Assembly: GCA_002898555.1 (NCBI GenBank)
Contig: BEHR01000006.1
Coordinates: 1-64,000, forward strand
Length of the DNA: 64,000 nucleotides
Direction of reading: 5' to 3'
From: a bacterium HR15
GTDB lineage: Bacteria; Armatimonadota; Fimbriimonadia; Fimbriimonadales; GBS-DC
Part shown: positions 3,107 through 46,518 of the stretch, in pieces
Numbering within the stretch: the stretch's first letter is position 1
Layout of the letters: every line of letters begins with the position of its first letter
Notes under the pieces: model-generated
What the model was told of the DNA's origin: nothing
Seen by the model: the letters and a program-made list of their open reading frames with translations, nothing else
Databases searched by the model: none
Program-made: the position numbers and the translations under genes

Positions 3107-3379
3107 TCACTGAGGTACAGGGATGGGCAAGGGAACCAACGATGGGCAGCAACCTTGTTCTTGCTGATACAAGAATCGCATGCTATGCGACACGGGACAT
3201 TCCGTATGCCTGTTTGCGATGATTTTCTCCTCGTCATTTTGACAAATTAGCCGTAAAGTATTATACCGTTCTTTACCGTATAGATCAATAAACACATAGA
3301 GTTTGCTGCATGGCGGCACAAGTCCACCCGGATAGACAGTATAACTACCTCGGTGCGGGACCCACATCGGAAAAAAGAT
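3107..3379 (-). other. Minus-one-frame continuation of the 3720 gene
   Basis: Downstream of the T-run at 3371-3376 the -1 frame reads PMWVPHRGSYTVYPGG, then KLYVFIDLYGKERYNTLRL and a Cys-containing tail (TECPVSHSM, QEQGCCPSL) to a TGA at 3107-3109. It looks more protein-like than the zero-frame tail, and its stop sits within the ribosome site of the next gene, as expected for the true gene end in an operon. Joined to the first 117 or so codons it would give a product of about 204 residues. Confidence 0.5.
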
Positions 3380-3720
3380 GGCATAAGACTGCATTGGCAA
3401 TTAGGATCCCCTATAACATTCTCTATCGTGATGCGAACAGGATACACTCGTGGAACGGGTAAACACCAATCTGGTGCTTCGCACTGAAAGTTGCTACAAG
3501 ATACAATGTCATTCATGCAGAGGTAGTACGATTCCTCAGAAAACAGGTCTTCCAGAACGATACAACCAGCGCATGGGTCATCGAAAGTTCCATAATCCAC
3601 AGCAGCGATGCTCAACGGCGGGGGCACCACCAACGACACGCACAGCACCACGGCAAACGCCTTTGCCGTTCCCTTCCGCGCCAACACCTGGCGCACCCAA
3701 CGCAAACTGCCTCGTCGCAT
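3247..3720 (-). CDS. Cys-rich secreted protein, frameshifted near its middle
   Basis: Zero-frame product of 157 residues. The start at 3720 has an AAGGAGG box and a clear export signal: basic MRRGSLRWVRQVLARKG followed by AKAFAVVLCVSLVVPPPLS and an Ala-Ala cleavage region. The exported part is Cys-rich (DDPCAGCIV, IVSCSNFQCEAPDWC, GDPNCQC), suggesting disulfides. In frame, the sequence reaches T-TTT-TTC at 3376-3370, a canonical -1 slippery heptamer; the zero frame then ends at 3247, while the -1 frame runs to 3107. Either programmed frameshifting makes two products or a base has been lost from the T-run. No family recognised. Confidence 0.6.
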   Translation of the reverse strand: MRRGSLRWVRQVLARKGTAKAFAVVLCVSLVVPPPLSIAAVDYGTFDDPCAGCIVLEDLFSEESYYLCMNDIVSCSNFQCEAPDWCLPVPRVYPVRITIENVIGDPNCQCSLMPSFFRCGSRTEVVILSIRVDLCRHAANSMCLLIYTVKNGIILYG

Positions 3721-3792
3721 CGTTGTTGCCTCCTTGTTCCAAAGGTTCGCTTCTATTTATAGCCCATCCTGCAGGGGTTTGTCAAGGAGGGG

Positions 3793-4098
3793 AGAGAGCG
3801 TTCGAAAATTCACTCGCTGGAGGGCGAGGCTCCCGCCGAGCCGTTAAAGAATATTTGGCATGGGTTTTTGGGTAGACAAAATTTTCTTTTCCGGGGTAGC
3901 CCAAAATTTTTTTCTCTGGGGTACTCGTCTGGGTCAGAGAAAAAAATTTTGCTGCTGGGTCGGAAAAGAAAATTTTGCACGCAGGTTTGCCCCTACACGC
4001 TGGGAGGCTCGCCCTCCACGCCCCTCTCCCTCTGGGAGAGGGGCAAGGGGTGTGAGGGCCTTCGGCTCGCCAGGAGGCTCGCCCTCCAAATGCAACGA
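3793..4098. repeat. Mosaic interspersed repeat element, copy A
   Basis: Shares its building blocks, in the same order, with the element at 25302-25774: GTTCGAAAATTCA-type left end (3794-3812), one GGAGGGCGAGGCTCC unit (3819-3842), GTTAAAGAATATTTGGCATG, several AT-rich hairpins built from CCAAAATTTTCTTTT and TTTCTCTGGGGTAC, a CCCCTCTCCCTCTGGGAGAG hairpin near 4021-4045 and an inverted GCTCGCCCTCCA end near 4087. The right terminal repeat of the 25-kb copy is not seen here, so this copy seems truncated. Short frames on both strands in this stretch are translations of the repeat, not genes. Confidence 0.75.
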
Positions 4099-12267: not shown

Positions 12268-12314
12268 TGAAATTTTTTCTCTGGGGTACCCGTCTGGGTC
12301 AGAGAAAAAATTTC
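12268..12314. repeat. AT-rich palindromic repeat inside the head cassette
   Basis: Arms TGAAATTTTTTCTCTG (12268-12283) and CAGAGAAAAAATTTC (12300-12314) with GGGTACC-containing loop. The same palindrome occurs inside the element at 3793-4098 and, in a shorter loop form, at 48917-48953. Between the decoration and capsid genes it could act as a partial terminator or RNA processing hairpin. Confidence 0.65.
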
Positions 12315-16408: not shown

Positions 16409-17767
16409 CTAAGTGGAACCGAAACGACTCGTCCGCCAAATGAGCGTCGAGCAACCCCACACCACACCCAACACCAGATAGGGCTGCAGGGGCAGCATCG
16501 GGCGGCTGCCCCCCGCATACACCCAAATGGTCAGCCAAACCCACCCAGCAAGCAGAATCACCAACCACTGTAACGCCACCTTGGGCGTGTAGGGACAGGC
16601 AGAAGAACTGCCCCTACGGGGTATCATCCGCGCAAACCCGTACACCGCCATCAGCAAATAAAGCCAGTAGAGCAGGTCGGCTCCTCGTAATGCCATCGCC
16701 AACCGCCGATTGCCGGGATCTTGCAAACCGAAGGCGGAAAGGCTCAAGCGCGTCTTGAGCCAAAGCAAGCAGGCAAACGCACCCGGATTCTCCCAAACCC
16801 ACTGTAGGGCAAGGCGCAACGCCTTGCGATCACGCTCCACAGGGTCCACTGAAGCAATCGCCTGCTGCACATCCACCACCTTGCCACCCACCACCATCGT
16901 CTCCGGCAGACCGGGTCTGAAACCACCGTCGGCTTCCGGGTTATTCGCCCACAAGAACACATAACCACCCAACCCAACAGGAATAAAATGTCCGAAACGG
17001 GCATAAAGATACGCCACATAGGGCGCAACAGTAAGGCATGCGGTAAGAAGCAGGATGGCAGCGGCGCGCAGACCGCTGCGTCCCCCCATGCCCTTTGGAG
17101 GGCGAGGCTCCTGCCGAGCCGAATCTGGAGGGCGAGGCTCCTGCCGAGCCGAATCTGGAGGGCGAGGCTCCCGGCGAACTGTGAACCTCCAAACCCATAA
17201 TGCCACCAGCAAGATGAAGGGCAAAAAGCTTGCCCGCGTGAGGGCAAGCATCCCCAGCAATCCCCCTACCAGCACCCAGCGCCAGCCTGAAGTGTCTGCC
17301 CCGTCGGACACCGTCAACACACAGAATGTCATGCTCCATACCAATAGCGGCAACACCAAGTTCTCGGTGTAGAGCCAGCCAGTAATCATGAGCAAGTGCG
17401 GGTGCAGCGCGGCAAGCAGCAGCGTCCCGTTCGCCACCCGCTCGCCAAAAAGCCGCCGCCCCATCACCCACAGACCCGCTAATGCCAATAGCCCCAGCAG
17501 CGCATTAACAAGCCGCACGGCTTGCGGCTGATGACCCACTAAGGCATAAACCCCTGCCATCAGCCAGATATAAGCCGGTGCGACCTGCAAGCCCTTCTCA
17601 TACACATAGCGACCCTCCGAAACCAGCGTCCATGCGATGTGGTCATGCACCACCGCGTCGCCATGGAGCGGATCGCGCCGCAGAAAGGGGTCAATCTGTA
17701 CCGCCCACAGCGCATAGCCCACACGCAGAACCACCACCAGCACCCACAGGAAGAGTGTGGCTCTCAT
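16409..17767 (-). CDS. Polytopic membrane glycosyltransferase (GT39/ArnT-like) with in-frame repeat insertion
   Basis: 452 residues, about ten hydrophobic segments. The DPLHGDAVVHDHIAWTL loop after the first membrane helix resembles the acidic catalytic loop of GT39/GT83 lipid-sugar transferases, followed by GWLYTENLVLPLL. Between two membrane helices, about residues 197-225, the chain reads RREPRPPDSARQEPRPP and so on, coded by two and a half copies of the genome's 30-base interspersed repeat (17097-17180). Another Cys-Pro loop, RRGSSSACPYTPK (about 390), comes from a second repeat-like stretch near 16588-16620. Overlaps the next membrane transferase gene by 4 bases (co-translated). Confidence 0.75.
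   Translation of the reverse strand: MRATLFLWVLVVVLRVGYALWAVQIDPFLRRDPLHGDAVVHDHIAWTLVSEGRYVYEKGLQVAPAYIWLMAGVYALVGHQPQAVRLVNALLGLLALAGLWVMGRRLFGERVANGTLLLAALHPHLLMITGWLYTENLVLPLLVWSMTFCVLTVSDGADTSGWRWVLVGGLLGMLALTRASFLPFILLVALWVWRFTVRREPRPPDSARQEPRPPDSARQEPRPPKGMGGRSGLRAAAILLLTACLTVAPYVAYLYARFGHFIPVGLGGYVFLWANNPEADGGFRPGLPETMVVGGKVVDVQQAIASVDPVERDRKALRLALQWVWENPGAFACLLWLKTRLSLSAFGLQDPGNRRLAMALRGADLLYWLYLLMAVYGFARMIPRRGSSSACPYTPKVALQWLVILLAGWVWLTIWVYAGGSRPMLPLQPYLVLGVVWGCSTLIWRTSRFGST
17097..17180. repeat. 30-base repeat array inside a coding region, copy B
   Basis: Units of 30 bases beginning GGAGGGCGAGGCTCCTGCCG and ending GAGCCGAATCT start at 17097, 17127 and 17157, the last being diverged and partial. 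Because the unit is a multiple of three it stays in frame on the minus strand and adds an Arg/Pro/Glu-rich cytoplasmic or periplasmic loop. The same unit is intergenic at 3819, 25332-25505 and 44791-44876. Confidence 0.85.
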
Positions 17768-23188: not shown

Positions 23189-24175
23189 TCAATAGTGCGC
23201 TAATTGACGCGCCGCCATGAGAATATCATCCACGCTGGGCAGGACGAACTTCTCCAGCGGCTCGGCAAAGGGCACAAAGCTGTCTTTTGCTGCGACGCGC
23301 ATGATGGGCGCGTCCAGCCACTCGAACAGGTGTTCCGCCAGACGCGCTGCAATCTCCGCCCCTACACCCCCTGTCAGCGGCGCCTCGTACACAATCAGTA
23401 CCTTGCTGGTCTTGCGCACCGAGTGGAAAATGGTCTCCATATCGAGCGGTTTAATCGTGCGCAAATCAACGACTTCTGCCGAGATGCCTTCCGTTTCCAG
23501 CTGCTGGGCTGCCTCCAGCGCGAAATGTACCATCGCCCCATAGGTGATGATGCTTAGATGCGTGCCCTCTCGGCGGATACGCGCCTCACCCAGCGGAACG
23601 ATGAAATCTTCGCCCGGCTGCGGGATATGCCCCTTAATGCGTCGGTAGAGAAACTTATGTTCAAAAAACAGCACGGGATTATTGTCGCGAATCGCCGCTT
23701 TCATCAGCCCATAGGCGTCGTCAGGAAAGGCAGGCTGCACCACCTTCAGACCGGGCACATGGAAAAACCATGCCTCGAACTGCTGGCTATGATACAGGCT
23801 GCCACCCACATAGCCGCCCGAGGGTCCCCGAATGACCAACGGCAGGCTCACTGTGCCGCCCGAACGGTAGCGATAAGTGGCGGCGACATTCACCACCTGA
23901 TCGAAGCCACAAGAGATGAAGTCCATAAACTGCATTTCGGCAATGGGGCGTTTGCCCATCGCAGCAGCGCCGACCGCCACACCGATGATAGCGGTTTCGG
24001 AGATAGGTGCGTCCACTACACGGTCGGGTCCAAATCGCTCTAAAAAACCATGCGTGACGCCAAAGGCACCGCCCAATCGCCCAATGTCTTCGCCAATCAG
24101 GAACACATTGGGGTCGCGTTCCATCTCCTCCCACATCGCCGTGCGGATTGCCTCCAGCAGCGTGACCTCTCTCAT
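23189..24175 (-). CDS. 2-oxoacid dehydrogenase E1 beta subunit
   Basis: 328 residues, the usual length. Features: VFLIGEDIGRLGGAFGVT near the N-terminus, DAPISETAIIGVAVGAAAMG, EMQFMDFISCGFDQVVN and the C-terminal transketolase-type domain with VEVVDLRTIKPLDMETI and VYEAPLTGGVGAEIAA. With the alpha subunit it binds thiamine diphosphate and decarboxylates the 2-oxoacid. Overlaps the alpha gene by 4 bases and lies 14 bases ahead of the E2 gene. Confidence 0.93.
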   Translation of the reverse strand: MREVTLLEAIRTAMWEEMERDPNVFLIGEDIGRLGGAFGVTHGFLERFGPDRVVDAPISETAIIGVAVGAAAMGKRPIAEMQFMDFISCGFDQVVNVAATYRYRSGGTVSLPLVIRGPSGGYVGGSLYHSQQFEAWFFHVPGLKVVQPAFPDDAYGLMKAAIRDNNPVLFFEHKFLYRRIKGHIPQPGEDFIVPLGEARIRREGTHLSIITYGAMVHFALEAAQQLETEGISAEVVDLRTIKPLDMETIFHSVRKTSKVLIVYEAPLTGGVGAEIAARLAEHLFEWLDAPIMRVAAKDSFVPFAEPLEKFVLPSVDDILMAARQLAHY

Positions 24176-25224
24176 CGCGACACCCCCGCGCCCTCGTCGT
24201 AGATGTCTTCTAAGGCGGTGTGCGGTTCGGGATCAGGGCTTCGAATGGCGTACTCGACGGCATCCTGAATCTCAGCCACCACATCAGGAGGTGGAGTGGG
24301 CAGTTCCTCTTCCGTGAACAATCCAGTACTCAGCAAATATTCTCGAAATCGAGGCAGCGGATCGCGCTTCTCCCACATCTCTATCTCCTCAACAGGGCGA
24401 TACTGCCGGGCGCGAGTCTCATCGTGGTCGGCATGCCCCTGCAGGCGATAGGTCACGCATTCGACGATGCTGGGCCCCCTGCCTGCTCGCGCATGCTCGA
24501 TAGCGGCACAAGTGGCGTCGTATACCTCCAGCACATCGTTGCCATCGACAGTATAGCCTGGAATACCATAGCCCAGTGCGCGATCCGCCACACGGGGCGT
24601 GGGCACCTCCAGCTCGATAGGTGTGGAATAGGCATACTGATTGTTCTCCACGATTAAAATGATAGGGAGCTTATGCACCGCAGCATAGTTCATACCCTCA
24701 TGAAACGCGCCCGTCGCTGTGGCCCCTTCGCCCAGATAGGTCATGATAACCGAGTCGGTCTTGCCGTCCAGTCGCAACGCCCAGGCGACACCGCACGCCA
24801 CCGGGATAGTGGAGCCGAGCATGCTGGTGGAGTGGATAATGCCCAGTTTCAGGTCGCCCATATGGCTCCATGAGTCTTTGCCGCGGCTGGGTGCGTTCGC
24901 TTTGCCCCATACCTGGCACATCACCTGCCGAGTAGTCATACCCTTGAAAACAAAGATAGGCATATCGCGATGGATAGGCGACACGAAGTCCGTAGGACGC
25001 AGGGGATAGCTGGTACCCACCTGAATTGCCTCCTGTCCACGCGAGCCGTACACATTCCCGCGGCGCAACCGCCCTTTCTTCTTCAGGTCATACAGTGTCT
25101 CGTCGAACACACGCGCAAACCACATGCGCCGATAAATCTCCACCAAATCCTCTTTGGTCAGGCGGTCCCGATAACGCGCGACTTTCTCCTCGTCCGTCAT
25201 CCGATTTTTGACCCGTGTACTCAA
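24172..25224 (-). CDS. 2-oxoacid dehydrogenase E1 alpha subunit
   Basis: 350 residues with a TTG start at 25224 supported by AAGGAGGAT; the longer frame (to 25272) has no ribosome site and crosses the promoter. Thiamine diphosphate motif MTYLGEGATATGAFHEGMN ... ENNQYAYS (G-[D/E]-G-x-N type) at about residues 165-205, preceded by SMLGSTIPVACGVAWAL and HRDMPIFVFKG. RLQGHADHDETRARQYRP marks the phosphorylation-loop region of the family. First gene of the complex; promoter at 25251-25256. Confidence 0.93.
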   Translation of the reverse strand: MSTRVKNRMTDEEKVARYRDRLTKEDLVEIYRRMWFARVFDETLYDLKKKGRLRRGNVYGSRGQEAIQVGTSYPLRPTDFVSPIHRDMPIFVFKGMTTRQVMCQVWGKANAPSRGKDSWSHMGDLKLGIIHSTSMLGSTIPVACGVAWALRLDGKTDSVIMTYLGEGATATGAFHEGMNYAAVHKLPIILIVENNQYAYSTPIELEVPTPRVADRALGYGIPGYTVDGNDVLEVYDATCAAIEHARAGRGPSIVECVTYRLQGHADHDETRARQYRPVEEIEMWEKRDPLPRFREYLLSTGLFTEEELPTPPPDVVAEIQDAVEYAIRSPDPEPHTALEDIYDEGAGVSR

Positions 25225-25250
25225 GGCGAGATCCTCCTTAGGTGTGGAAT

Positions 25251-25256
25251 AGTATA
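25251..25256 (-). promoter_or_regulatory. -10 box of the 2-oxoacid dehydrogenase operon
   Basis: Minus-strand GGGTATACT 26 bases before the TTG start, followed by the AAGGAGGAT ribosome site: a short-leader promoter. Confidence 0.5.
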
Positions 25257-25301
25257 CCCAATAACTCGCCAAATGCTCCTGACGGATACATACCTTCGGT
25301 T

Positions 25302-25774
25302 GAGGGTGTTCGAAAATTCACGCGGCTCGCTGGAGGGCGAGGCTCCTGCTGAGCCGAGATTGGAGGGCGAGGCTCCTGCTGAGCCGAGATTGGAGGGCGA
25401 GGCTCCTGCCGAGCCGAAATTGGCGGGCGAGGCTCCTGCTGAGCCGAGATTGGAGGGCGAGGCTCCTGCCGAGCCGAGATTGGAGGGCGAGGCTTCCGCC
25501 GAGCCGTTAAAGAATATTTGGCATGGGTTTTTGGGTACCCAAAATTTTCTTTTCCGGGGTACCCCAAAATTTTTTCTCCGGGGTACCCTGCTGGGTCGGA
25601 AAAGAAAATTTTGCACGCAGGTCTGCCCCTACCGCTGGGAGGCTCGCCTTCCACCCCCCTCTCCCTCTGGGAGAGGGGCAAGGGGTGTGAGGGTATGGGG
25701 CAGGCACGGAGGTCTGCCCCTACACGCCAGGAGGCTCGCCCTCCAAATGCTTGGTGGATTTTTCGAACAGCCTC
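25302..25774. mobile_element. Mosaic interspersed repeat element, copy C (MITE-like, with terminal inverted repeats)
   Basis: About 473 bases bounded by GAGGGTGTTCGAAAATTCA (25302-25320) and the inverse of GAGGCTGTTCGAAAAATCCA (25755-25774). Inside: a six-unit 30-base array (25332-25505), GTTAAAGAATATTTGGCATG, three AT-rich CCAAAATTTTCTTTT/GGGGTACC palindromes (about 25530-25615), a CCCTCTCCCTCTGGGAGAGG hairpin (about 25660-25680) and GCTCGCCCTCCA at the right, an inverse of the unit start. No transposase. Copy A (3793) follows the same order. It occupies most of the 820-base gap between the E1alpha operon and the next prepilin gene; 25775-25965 shows nothing recognisable. Confidence 0.7.
25332..25505. 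repeat. 30-base tandem array, six units
   Basis: Units start at 25332, 25362, 25392, 25422, 25452 and 25482. Each begins GGAGGGCGAGGCTCC (one GGCGGG variant) and continues TGC(C/T)GAGCCGA(G/A)ATT. There are no spacers, so this is not a CRISPR array. Both strands give open frames (EGEAPAEPR or SAGASPSNLG types) that should not be called genes. Confidence 0.9.
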
Positions 25775-25968
25775 TACCTTAGGTTCAACTTTCAAATGGG
25801 GCTTGGAGGCAAGAGCAGCTCTCTCACCCACCGCATGAGAGGGAAGATATACCTGAAGAGGGTTAAAAAAGCGGGCTTTGTCAGCTCGCTACAGGACACG
25901 GGGGCGTATCCCTGTCAGCTTCCATTGATCCTATAGAGACCCCATACCTTTGCAAAAGGGGAATAGGG

Positions 25969-33978: not shown

Positions 33979-34008
33979 CCCCCTCCCCCAAAGCTTTGGG
34001 AGAGGGGG
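33979..34008. terminator. Palindrome between convergent rsmI and secreted-protein genes
   Basis: Arms CCCCCTCCCCCAAA (33979-33992) and TTTGGGAGAGGGGG (33995-34008), one mismatch. It is followed by CAAGGGGTTGAGGG, the same flank that follows the CCCTCTGGGAGAGG hairpin inside the interspersed elements near 4045 and 25680. So it is a solo copy of that repeat module, probably acting as a bidirectional terminator. Confidence 0.6.
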
Positions 34009-34024
34009 CAAGGGGTTGAGGGCA

Positions 34025-35920
34025 TTAACTCCCGCACCCGAAGTCAAACAGCACGATCAGCAGGTCCTGATCATCCACGAAGTCATCGCCGTTCAAATCC
34101 TCAGGACAACCCGGACAGAAGTTGCCAAAGGCGAACAGCACAGCTAACAGGTCAGTATCATCGGTGTGACCATCGCCATTGACATCGCCCGCACAGCCCG
34201 GAGGCGTCTCGCAACCCTGCGGGCTGACGAAGTACGCGCCCTGCAGCTGGATGACATAGGTGCCACTGCCGCCCGTACCAGTCCAGCCTGCAACCGGGTT
34301 CGCCGCACCTGGCCCATCGGGGCAACGAATCTCGCCAAACGGCGAGTTATTCCAGATGAGCTGACCGCTGCTGTCCACCGGATCCTGATTATAGCCTGTG
34401 ATGGCAAGCAGGTAAATACCCGACTCGGTGATGCAGCCAGTAGAGTTGTCGATGCAGGACTGCAAACTCCCGCAGTCGTCGTTATGCACCACGCCAGTGC
34501 CATCGCAGCGGAACAGGAACAGCTGCGTGTCGAACGCCGCGCCACCGACCGTTGTTGCCGAGAAGCTGGCGGGATCGGTGATGCAGATAATGTACATATC
34601 GGCGTCGGAAGAATTAGCACGATTACCGCTGATGCGTGTGACTGCGGTCTGGCAAGGGGTCGCTTCTGGTCGCGAGACCACTTGCGCGGTAGCAGGCAGA
34701 TCACCCGCGTCACCGCCGCCATTTATGGTCTCGTCCCAGTGGTCGAGGGGCGGCGGCGGACAATCGTCCGGGTTGCCCGCGGTCGTGCCTTCCGCACCCT
34801 GCAGCGTGATGATGTAAGTGCCACCCGCCGTAGTGCTACCCGACCAGCCACTTACCCGCGACGCCGCTTCGGGACCATCAGGGCAGCGAATGGCATCAAA
34901 CGGCGAGTTATTCCAGATAAAACCGCCTTCACAGCCCACAGGATCGCGATTGTACCTGCTGACGGCAAGATAGTACACCCCTGCCTCGGTGATGCAGCCG
35001 GTGGAGTTGTCGATATAGGAGAGCAATCCGAAGGTATCATCATTGTGTACCGCACCGGTACCATCTGCCTTAAACAGGAACAGCTGCGTATCGAACAGCG
35101 CGTTGCAGCGCAGGGAGGCACTGAACAAGGCAGGATCGGTGATGCGAATAGCATACATATCTACGCCGTCCGCCTCCAGATCGCCTCGAATGGCGGTCAG
35201 CGTGCCACTACCAGTGCTCTGCGCGGTCTCCGGGGTTTCGCCGGCATCGCCACCCCCGTTAAGGGTCTCATCCCAGCCGGTGAAGGGTGGCGTCGTGCCA
35301 AACTGGAAGCTGAGCGTGCCGCTGTCCCAGTTGCCGTCCTGTCCGCAGTCGGCGAAGTCGTTGAAGGTCTCGAAGAACTCCAGATAGAGGTTGCCGTCGG
35401 GCAGGGGCAGGTCAGGCAAATTGTACACATCGCACAACTTGCCCACGCCGCCACTGGTGTAAAAACCTGTGCCGGCGGAACAGTCCGCGGCGCCCGGGCG
35501 CAGGATATAGCCCTGCCCGTTCACATTCGTGATGAGCACCGCGATCTCGCAGCGCCAGCTGGGCGAGGTGGCAGTGAGCTGCACATCCCAGCCAATGCCG
35601 TTGAAGTTGTCTCTGCCCGCAGGCGCGGGAATGGTCATGCGAATGTTGCACGCGGCGCCTGCACTATCATAGCTGGGTGTGCCCGTCACATCGACCACCA
35701 CGATATCGCCTGAAGCCGGGGAGAAGTCGCCCCCACTATAGGGGACATACAACGCGGGATTGCGCGGACCAACATTGACGGGCTCCACAAGGAGCGTCGT
35801 CCGCGGCTTCTCATACTGGTCCTTAGGAGACAGTGCTCCCTTCTGTGCCAGCATCGACGCACTTAAAGCGAGGGCTGTCATCAACAGTCCAAACCACCGA
35901 AAACAGACAGCGCTTCTCAT
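34025..35920 (-). CDS. Secreted repeat protein with dockerin-like tail
   Basis: 631 residues. Signal peptide (FRWFGLLMTALALSASMLAQ), an N-terminal beta domain (about 50-220, several Cys), then two similar domains of about 165 residues each, starting GWDETLNGGGDAGETP and HWDETINGGGDAGDLP. Each contains MYAIRITDP, a DTQLFLFKADGTG-HNDD segment and TEAGVYYLAV, a pattern of PPC/pre-peptidase-like extracellular domains. The C-terminus has two EF-hand/dockerin-like motifs (GDVNGDGHTDDTDLLAVLF, DLNGDDFVDDQDLLIVLF). Probably an exported, calcium-stabilised surface protein. AAAGGAGG ribosome site. Confidence 0.83.
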   Translation of the reverse strand: MRSAVCFRWFGLLMTALALSASMLAQKGALSPKDQYEKPRTTLLVEPVNVGPRNPALYVPYSGGDFSPASGDIVVVDVTGTPSYDSAGAACNIRMTIPAPAGRDNFNGIGWDVQLTATSPSWRCEIAVLITNVNGQGYILRPGAADCSAGTGFYTSGGVGKLCDVYNLPDLPLPDGNLYLEFFETFNDFADCGQDGNWDSGTLSFQFGTTPPFTGWDETLNGGGDAGETPETAQSTGSGTLTAIRGDLEADGVDMYAIRITDPALFSASLRCNALFDTQLFLFKADGTGAVHNDDTFGLLSYIDNSTGCITEAGVYYLAVSRYNRDPVGCEGGFIWNNSPFDAIRCPDGPEAASRVSGWSGSTTAGGTYIITLQGAEGTTAGNPDDCPPPPLDHWDETINGGGDAGDLPATAQVVSRPEATPCQTAVTRISGNRANSSDADMYIICITDPASFSATTVGGAAFDTQLFLFRCDGTGVVHNDDCGSLQSCIDNSTGCITESGIYLLAITGYNQDPVDSSGQLIWNNSPFGEIRCPDGPGAANPVAGWTGTGGSGTYVIQLQGAYFVSPQGCETPPGCAGDVNGDGHTDDTDLLAVLFAFGNFCPGCPEDLNGDDFVDDQDLLIVLFDFGCGS

Positions 35921-44657: not shown

Positions 44658-44730
44658 CAATGTACGCGAAAACCCTATCTATACGAGAAGGAACCCAGGG
44701 CCATTCGCGCACATTGCTATTTATGCTCTA

Positions 44731-45003
44731 AGAGACTGTTTAAAAACTGGAGTTCAAGGAGATGGTCAGGCATTCACGCTGGAGCATTTTGGGGGGCGAG
44801 GCTCCTGCCGAGCCGAATCTGGAGGGCGAGGCTCCTGCCGAGCCGAATCTGGAGGGCGAGGCTCCCGCCGAGCCGTTCCAACCGACGCCGCACTAAGACA
44901 GGACTGTCTTCGCCACACATGTCGGCTCGCGGGGACGCTCGCCCTCCACTGTGAGGTTCGAGCAGATGCGCCAGTCTGTCCCTACCATTCTTAAACAGTC
45001 TCT
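44731..45003. mobile_element. Interspersed repeat element, copy D (MITE-like)
   Basis: 273 bases framed by 16-base terminal inverted repeats AGAGACTGTTTAAAAA (44731-44746) and the inverse of AGAGACTGTTTAAGAA (44988-45003), one mismatch. Inside are two full and one partial 30-base units (44791-44876), then GACAGGACTGTCTTCGCC, and an inverted unit-like GGCTCGCGGGGACGCTCGCCC (about 44923-44943). No transposase. Its right end overlaps the stop codon of the 45002-46300 gene. The terminal repeats differ from those of copy C, so different termini carry the same 30-base core. Confidence 0.72.
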
Positions 45004-46300
45004 AACATCCGCTGCCGAAGTTGAATAGCACTAACAACAGGTCGGCATCATCTACAGTGCCGTCGCAATTAATGTCCAACGGAGTACTCGATTGTCCGAA
45101 CGCAAACAGCACTTGCAGCAGGTCCGCATCATCCACGCAACCGTTGCCGTCGACATCGGGGTCAGGAGGCGGACAGAGCCGTGCATCCTCCAGCAAGAAC
45201 GCCTCTTCACGCCCTGTAGAAGCGTTATAGCCAACCCCGACGAGATAGCGCCCGTCCTGCGATACACCGAACACACTATACAGGATGGAACCGTTCGCCA
45301 ATAGATCCGCGTAGATGCGGTTCAAGTTGCGCATGCCCGTCTGGGCAGTCCAGCGCACCGCCCGCCAACTGTTGGTCGCCCGAATGCGCACTTTGCCCCC
45401 AATGACCGCTCCATCACCAGAGGCAGCAAAAGCATCGCTATCGTCGAAGCCGGGTAAGATGCCCAACTCCTGAAGCCCTGTTGAAGCCGTCCAGCGACAG
45501 GCGCGATACTTGCCCTCCGCGTTATTGACAGTGCCAACAACCACTTGTCCGTTCGCGGAGATCCCCCAGGCGCTGCTGTAGCTGCCCCCAGGAAGGACCC
45601 CCAAATCCTGCATGCCAGTTAAAGCCGTCCATCGGAAGGCGCGCGTCTGACCGCTGGCATTTTCTGCCCAACCGACAATAATGCTGCCATCAGCGGAGAT
45701 ACCGTATGCCCAACTGGTGCGCCCGCCCAAAGTACCCAGATCTTGCATCCCACTGGAGGCGGTCCATCGAAACGCATGGTAGCCACCCCCGTCGATCGTA
45801 GCCGCTCCGACAACCACACTGCCATTGGCGGAAACCGCTTCACCCCAGCTGTCACCCGCACCGCCGAGCGAGCCGAGATCCTGCATCCCCGTGCCAGATG
45901 TCCAGCGAAAAGCGCGGAACATATAACCCGAGGTACCCGCCGAATCTCCCACAATCACCTGCCCGTTCGCGGAAGCACCTTTTGCCCTGCTGTTGCGCCC
46001 CGGCCCCGCCAGTGAACCAAGATCTTGAGGTTGCCACCCGTTAACAGATGTCCAGCGCACCGCACGCATCAGCGCACCAGGCGGATCAGCATCCCACGAG
46101 AACCCTACCACGGTGCTGCCGTCTGCCGAGATGCCATATGCCCAGCTCGATTCATGACCAGGTAAGGGTGCAAGCCAGCGCAGAGTCTGTGCTTGCACAA
46201 ACGCGACCATCGGACATAACCCAATAAGCAAAGACCGGACAACACCTTTCCAGTGAACACTTCGCCAGAAAGACCCATCTCTCCAGAGCATTTGCCTCAT
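45002..46300 (-). CDS. Secreted HAF-repeat protein with dockerin-like tail
   Basis: 432 residues. Signal peptide (SLLIGLCPMVAFVQAQ), then about seven HAF-type repeats of roughly 50 residues, each like ISADGSTVVG...RAVRWT..GMQDLG, forming a likely beta-propeller (residues 40-350), and at the end two EF-hand/dockerin-like motifs (PDVDGNGCVDDADLLQVLF, DINCDGTVDDADLLLVLF, with Cys replacing Asn-Gly in the second). Probably exported. AGGAGG ribosome site. Its stop codon lies in the right terminal repeat of element D. Confidence 0.83.
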   Translation of the reverse strand: MRQMLWRDGSFWRSVHWKGVVRSLLIGLCPMVAFVQAQTLRWLAPLPGHESSWAYGISADGSTVVGFSWDADPPGALMRAVRWTSVNGWQPQDLGSLAGPGRNSRAKGASANGQVIVGDSAGTSGYMFRAFRWTSGTGMQDLGSLGGAGDSWGEAVSANGSVVVGAATIDGGGYHAFRWTASSGMQDLGTLGGRTSWAYGISADGSIIVGWAENASGQTRAFRWTALTGMQDLGVLPGGSYSSAWGISANGQVVVGTVNNAEGKYRACRWTASTGLQELGILPGFDDSDAFAASGDGAVIGGKVRIRATNSWRAVRWTAQTGMRNLNRIYADLLANGSILYSVFGVSQDGRYLVGVGYNASTGREEAFLLEDARLCPPPDPDVDGNGCVDDADLLQVLFAFGQSSTPLDINCDGTVDDADLLLVLFNFGSGC

Positions 46301-46518
46301 CGCTTCTCCTCCTCTACAACGCTGTGAGCAAGGGGCGTACTCTGCCCAATTTGCTCCCTCATAATTTTAACCCATCTCCTTCGCTCGATGCAAGTAGGTT
46401 ACCATTTTGTAAGTAGGTCACTTTTTGGAAACCCCACGCTGTTTGCGTTTGAGCAGTTGGATAGCCAGCGTGGCCGCGTCGATATAGATTGTGATAGTTC
46501 GAACGCCCTCACTGACCC

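Follow-up and report, generated by a model that had tools for sequence, protein, structure and literature searches.

The window analysed here is a 64,000-nucleotide stretch (positions 1 to 64,000 of contig BEHR01000006.1) from the Armatimonadota bacterium HR15. Upstream of an E1-dehydrogenase gene (24172-25272), it carries a repeat element of 473 base pairs (bp) at 25302-25774, of which a second copy lies at 3794-4093. Both belong to what we call family A, a group of short elements (107-473 bp in this genome) with inverted ends (GAGGGTGTTCGAAAA) and no coding capacity. We consider it very probable that these are the miniature inverted-repeat transposable elements (MITEs) of an ISAae1-like insertion sequence (IS) of the IS5 superfamily, which prefers promoters of the sigma70/sigmaA type as its target. 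The features of family A in the window are as follows:

3794-4093, plus strand: copy 1, with left terminus GAGAGCGTTCGAAAA intact, one 30-bp unit, palindromes, hairpin and inverted unit
3785-3793, minus strand: target segment of copy 1, reading TCCCCTCCT on the minus strand, with TGACA of the -35 box directly after it
3756-3785, minus strand: host promoter of open reading frame (ORF) 3247-3720 (minus strand), with -35 box TTGACA at 3780-3785, an 18-bp spacer and -10 box TATAAA at 3756-3761
25291-25301, plus strand: left target duplication of copy 2, TACCTTCGGTT, 11 bp, with one mismatch to the right one
25302-25774, plus strand: copy 2 (the focal copy), 473 bp, both termini kept
25332-25505, plus strand: six 30-bp units carried as passenger inside copy 2
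25775-25785, plus strand: right target duplication of copy 2, TACCTTAGGTT
46497-46510, plus strand: lone family A terminus GTTCGAACGCCCTC, with ACTGACCCT, TGACA and then TATAAT after it

The two copies are 85% identical over 241 bp, and also share the ends and the inverted unit, all in the same order. This agrees with a first-pass annotation of the same DNA, in which copies at 3793-4098 and 25302-25774 were described as sharing a set of ordered modules. Homology of copy 1 with copy 2 ends at about 4093, its right terminus being lost. Copy 1 sits exactly on the -35 box of ORF 3247-3720, where TCCCCTCCT is joined to TGACA. Insertion at -35 boxes is the main property of the family and had been missed in the first-pass annotation, as had the A end at 46497-46510 and a group of units at 17097-17180. 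An Rfam search of the window gave no matches.

Reading outward from the A end TTTTTCGAACACCCTC, 8-10 variable bases are followed at many ends by TTGAC and then, at promoter spacing, by a TATAAT-like box. The pattern A end-N{2,12}-TTGAC occurs 42 times in this genome (0 in the reversed control) and is present in 22 of the 291 genomes of the phylum. Within a single genus it ranges from 18 occurrences in genome KatS3mg016 (G165) to 0 in G164, and this patchiness within genera led us to suspect a mobile element. Our own genome was examined in targeted stretches, in which target duplications were found at C27:5059, at C3:47621 (1 mismatch) and around the focal copy, while A-type MITEs and full IS of relatives are flanked by perfect duplications of 9-11 bp. 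G183 is a distant genome within the phylum. A 186-bp MITE there has A ends and 9-bp duplications, the edge of which fell at T^TGAC (the caret marking the edge) in an initial set of copies selected for TTGAC. A second G183 sample consisted of consecutive copies regardless of target. Of its 20 copies with a confirmed duplication, 17 match a -35 box at 5/6 or better, with the box placed exactly at the edge of the duplication. By chance such an edge is expected at 0.9% of sites, or about 0.2 of the 20 (binomial, 3e-32). The duplication leaves the -35 box restored. Either end of the element may face the promoter in this unbiased sample, which overturned the fixed insertion orientation that the TTGAC-biased first look had hinted at. 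When the 36 records with perfect duplications are pooled across all sources (some 34 separate sites, since two were counted from both sides, with TTGAC-chosen loci included and each record oriented by its best match), the sequence information is limited to T^TGAC(A/T).

Full IS with family A ends, 950-1026 bp long and encoding a DDE_Tnp_1 transposase, are found in Armatimonadota and in Thermosulfurimonas dismutans. The KatS3mg016 element (L166:850-1875) has the ends and target of family A. In G183 a 1012-bp IS with these ends is present in four or more intact copies; three of these were examined in detail and have the duplications CTTGAATCTCT and CAAAATGCAT, each followed by TGACA, and CCTGCAGCT, followed by GGACT. 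The IS of T. dismutans (950 bp) has 10-11-bp duplications at TGACA. The transposases are homologous (30% between KatS3mg016 and T. dismutans over 286 residues), match DDE_Tnp_1 (PF01609) at 3e-8 and 7e-9, and have the invariant residues D123, D202 and E260. They miss the NCBIfam cut-off for IS5 (best model NF033579, 33.9 and 84.1 bits against 140), and are thus IS5-like but outside that model. An IS256/Mutator origin was rejected, Transposase_mut (PF00872) being present in 0 of 10 genomes, and a structure prediction of the transposase was not used (predicted local distance difference test score of 44). WOR-3 genomes contain MITEs with family A ends and target; a search of one such genome revealed no transposase relative, and none was found in viral contigs either. 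Since only broken transposase remnants are left in the genome studied here, its family A copies are probably now stranded.

From these observations a mechanism can be proposed in which the transposase of a full IS would mobilise the MITEs in trans. The element would be joined between the first T and the TGAC of the -35 box and, staggered by 9-11 bp in the upstream direction, on the opposite strand. Gap repair would then duplicate these 9-11 bp and complete the -35 box again, leaving the element just upstream of an intact promoter that either of its ends may face. The 30-bp units, palindromes and hairpin would be carried along as passenger, and recombination between copies may yield junctions with two promoters.

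Comparison of sequences shows the ends, the duplications, the exact target position, the link to a DDE transposase, the enrichment of promoters, an unoccupied site in relatives and one altered gene neighbourhood. Several points nevertheless weigh against promoter preference as a general rule. No transposition event was observed, and no recognisable -35 box lies at the duplication of the focal copy (25302-25774). The G183 IS copy between CCTGCAGCT and GGACT sits inside a coding ORF. G183, T. dismutans and WOR-3 show strong targeting, but it is weaker among the small number of copies with verified duplications in G165 and G172, of which just 2 of 5 and 1 of 3, respectively, match a -35 box at 5/6 or better. 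Finally, only 28 of 56 A ends examined in this genome face TTGAC, which can be explained by a simple insertion needing one promoter-facing end only, and by many copies being recombined or old.

What the transposase reads at its target is a separate question. It may be, at somewhat less than even chance, that it reads the string T^TGAC only, and that promoters are hit because genic TTGAC insertions are purged while intergenic TTGAC is often a -35 box. The limited sequence information at the target fits this, as does the G183 copy at a GGAC-like site within a coding ORF. The surroundings of the string fit it less well. A -10 match of at least 4/6 at 16-19 bp accompanies 109 of 126 occupied TTGAC (87%), against 25 of the 134 remaining intergenic TTGAC of that DNA (19%) and 92 of 1105 TTGAC inside ORFs; for a match of at least 5/6 the Fisher test gives p = 2e-26, these comparisons being limited by crude ORF calls and possible orthologous sites. 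Some targets have a weak -35 box (TTGCGC, TTGCAT, TTGTGT) and an excellent -10 box 17-18 bp away. In addition, purifying selection should tolerate insertions at non-promoter intergenic sites equally well or better, and should therefore not prefer promoters over them. Because of the -10 enrichment at occupied sites we lean slightly towards the promoter as a whole being read. Tentatively, this can be extended to a proposal in which engaged promoters are what the IS lineage recognises, by touching sigma factor or RNA polymerase or by sensing promoter structure and not by TTGAC alone, the element then inserting one base inside the -35 box and restoring it. Such an IS would be a bacterial counterpart of Ty3-type targeting, and pairs of insertions would serve as exchange points at which genes are reshuffled promoter-to-promoter.

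A -35 box at each end, combined with the lack of a duplication, was seen in eight A copies within the stretches of this genome that were read and in the IS of G165 (locus L166). At L166, divergent TetR and COX2 genes adjoin only via the IS, and in the single-contig genome G164 about 302 kb separate their matches. Ten further genomes of the genus have no such element at the TetR promoter, although in one of them (L256) a putative, related-looking end lies near it. These two-promoter copies look like junctions formed by recombination between copies. Recombination between two ordinary insertions predicts reciprocal copies without any promoter, and such copies were indeed found. It is unlikely, though not far-fetched, that the transposase itself joined the second end to a second -35 box by adjacent deletion or inversion. 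The spacing of 8-10 bp is exact at both ends and IS are known to make adjacent deletions (PMC9330008), but the promoter-less copies, the numerous and similar copies available, and the distance between TetR and COX2 in G164 argue for recombination instead. At the COX2 promoter, different A-type elements occupy the same -35 box in two species (L263 in G172:C54 and L166 in G165:C2), which suggests that it was hit repeatedly by independent insertions. Tandem or adjacent A-type copies with one target duplication between them were also seen (L157, L158, L297, L311 and L339), as if a second copy can enter an already occupied promoter.

A third copy of the repeat had been placed in the same mosaic family in the first-pass annotation (44731-45003), on account of its 30-base units and despite its different termini. 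The units and termini are there, but the element belongs to a separate family, called family B. The features concerned are:

44729-44731, plus strand: left TAA duplication of the family B copy
44732-45002, plus strand: family B MITE, 271 bp, ends GAGACTGTTTAA
44791-44874, plus strand: three 30-bp units inside the family B copy
45003-45005, plus strand: right TAA duplication of the family B copy
17097-17180, plus strand: three 30-bp units with neither A nor B ends, in frame within ORF 16409-17767 (minus strand)

Thirteen further family B copies, all between 211 and 283 bp long, have the ends GAGACTGTTTAA...TTAAACAGTCTC, and 13 of the 14 copies are flanked by a 3-bp TNA duplication (TAA, TTA, TGA or TCA). 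TNA duplication is the rule of several groups of the IS5 family; family B likewise follows it, whereas family A, with 9-11 bp, differs. Family B is thus an ordinary IS5-type TNA MITE with a target rule unrelated to that of family A. No autonomous partner was found for it in its own genome, where PF01609 gave two decayed matches; relatives were not searched for one.

Allowing up to 3 mismatches, 148 copies of the 30-bp unit are spread over the 3.04-Mb genome, a number far above chance (0 in the reversed control), and the copy at 25302 has 72 BLAST matches. Since units are found inside A-ended elements, inside B-ended elements and alone (some apparently within genes), they are a passenger common to both families and not the defining feature of a mobile element. 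ORF 16409-17767 encodes a PMT_2-type membrane protein, in which the in-frame units encode QEPRPPDSAR repeats. The only candidate in the genome for a tyrosine transposase associated with repetitive extragenic palindromes (RAYT) is a Y1_Tnp (PF01797) gene at G000:C10:34510-34848; there is no unit nearby (C10:33000-36500), and a RAYT origin of the unit was rejected. A hairpin module (CCCTCTCC...GGAGAGGGG) lies within A elements at 4022-4058 and 25657-25693 of the window and alone at 33994-34026, and a similar hairpin inside the 186-bp MITE of G183 points to a second, widely spread passenger repeat.

The description of the repeat as non-autonomous and modular therefore holds, and modules occur singly as annotated (12270-12313, about 33994-34026 and about 48917). 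Few copies with no matching IS termini, the outcome named there as fatal to mobility, is not what was seen for family A, since IS with matching ends exist in KatS3mg016, G183 and T. dismutans. Travel by trans-acting enzymes agrees with these IS, by which the MITEs would be catalysed in trans; gene conversion, offered as an alternative, is not needed, although an exchange of passenger modules between copies by conversion is possible. A single mosaic family spread by either route is very improbable: the two A copies do share modules in a shared order, but A and B ends obey different target rules and units also occur alone. Least credible of all is that the A end is a transcription-factor site of promoters, for which speak its fixed spacing of 8-10 bp to the -35 box and its presence on both sides of divergent promoters, and which is contradicted by identical elements with perfect 9-11-bp duplications, by IS with the same ends and a transposase, and by the absence of the box from orthologous promoters in relatives, with zero copies in congeners.

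Base-precise targeting of -35 boxes would account for the tolerance of compact genomes towards dozens of copies. With an IS group of this kind, promoter recognition by a transposase can be tested directly, functional promoters of uncultured bacteria are marked by the insertions, and a laboratory tool for inserting DNA specifically at promoters suggests itself. The closest named element is ISAae1, an IS5-like IS on plasmid ece1 of Aquifex aeolicus, the transposase of which is 34% identical to that of T. dismutans. It resembles the family A IS in its related ends (GAGCCTGTTGAAAAAATC), length (about 1010 bp) and 9-bp duplication, while its terminal bases are not the same. The one ece1 copy examined has the duplication AACCAAGGT followed by a -35-like T^TTACA-N16-TATACT, which fits the rule; we found no statement on promoter targeting by ISAae1 in the open-access literature. 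In a more distant relative from Thermus, the 9-bp duplication does not lie at a -35 box.

For bacterial transposons, the targets usually described are AT-rich DNA, short sequence motifs, a single site in the chromosome, or regions marked by DNA-binding proteins such as H-NS (PMC11335895). No report of -35-targeted insertion in bacteria was found in open-access full text, subscription journals and ISfinder being outside the search. The BrickBuilt MITE of Porphyromonas gingivalis (PMC4596501) is likewise intergenic, with a tandem minisatellite and about 20 copies, but it has a 23-bp unit and promoters within the element, and promoter targeting is not known for it. Where IS supply a -35 or -10 box, element and promoter are also juxtaposed, the element donating promoter parts (PMC9330008), whereas family A targets a complete host promoter and regenerates it. 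For transposons captured by H-NS, target choice is likewise shaped by genome regulation, but this capture is regional, acts via DNA bridging and has no base-precise site (PMC11335895). The duplications of Correia elements (TA and longer) resemble -10 boxes. The yeast element Ty3 and the fission yeast element Tf1 also insert immediately upstream of transcribed units, and Ty3 does so to the exact base. These are retrotransposons that use polymerase II/III factors, whereas family A would combine a bacterial DDE IS with the -35 box.
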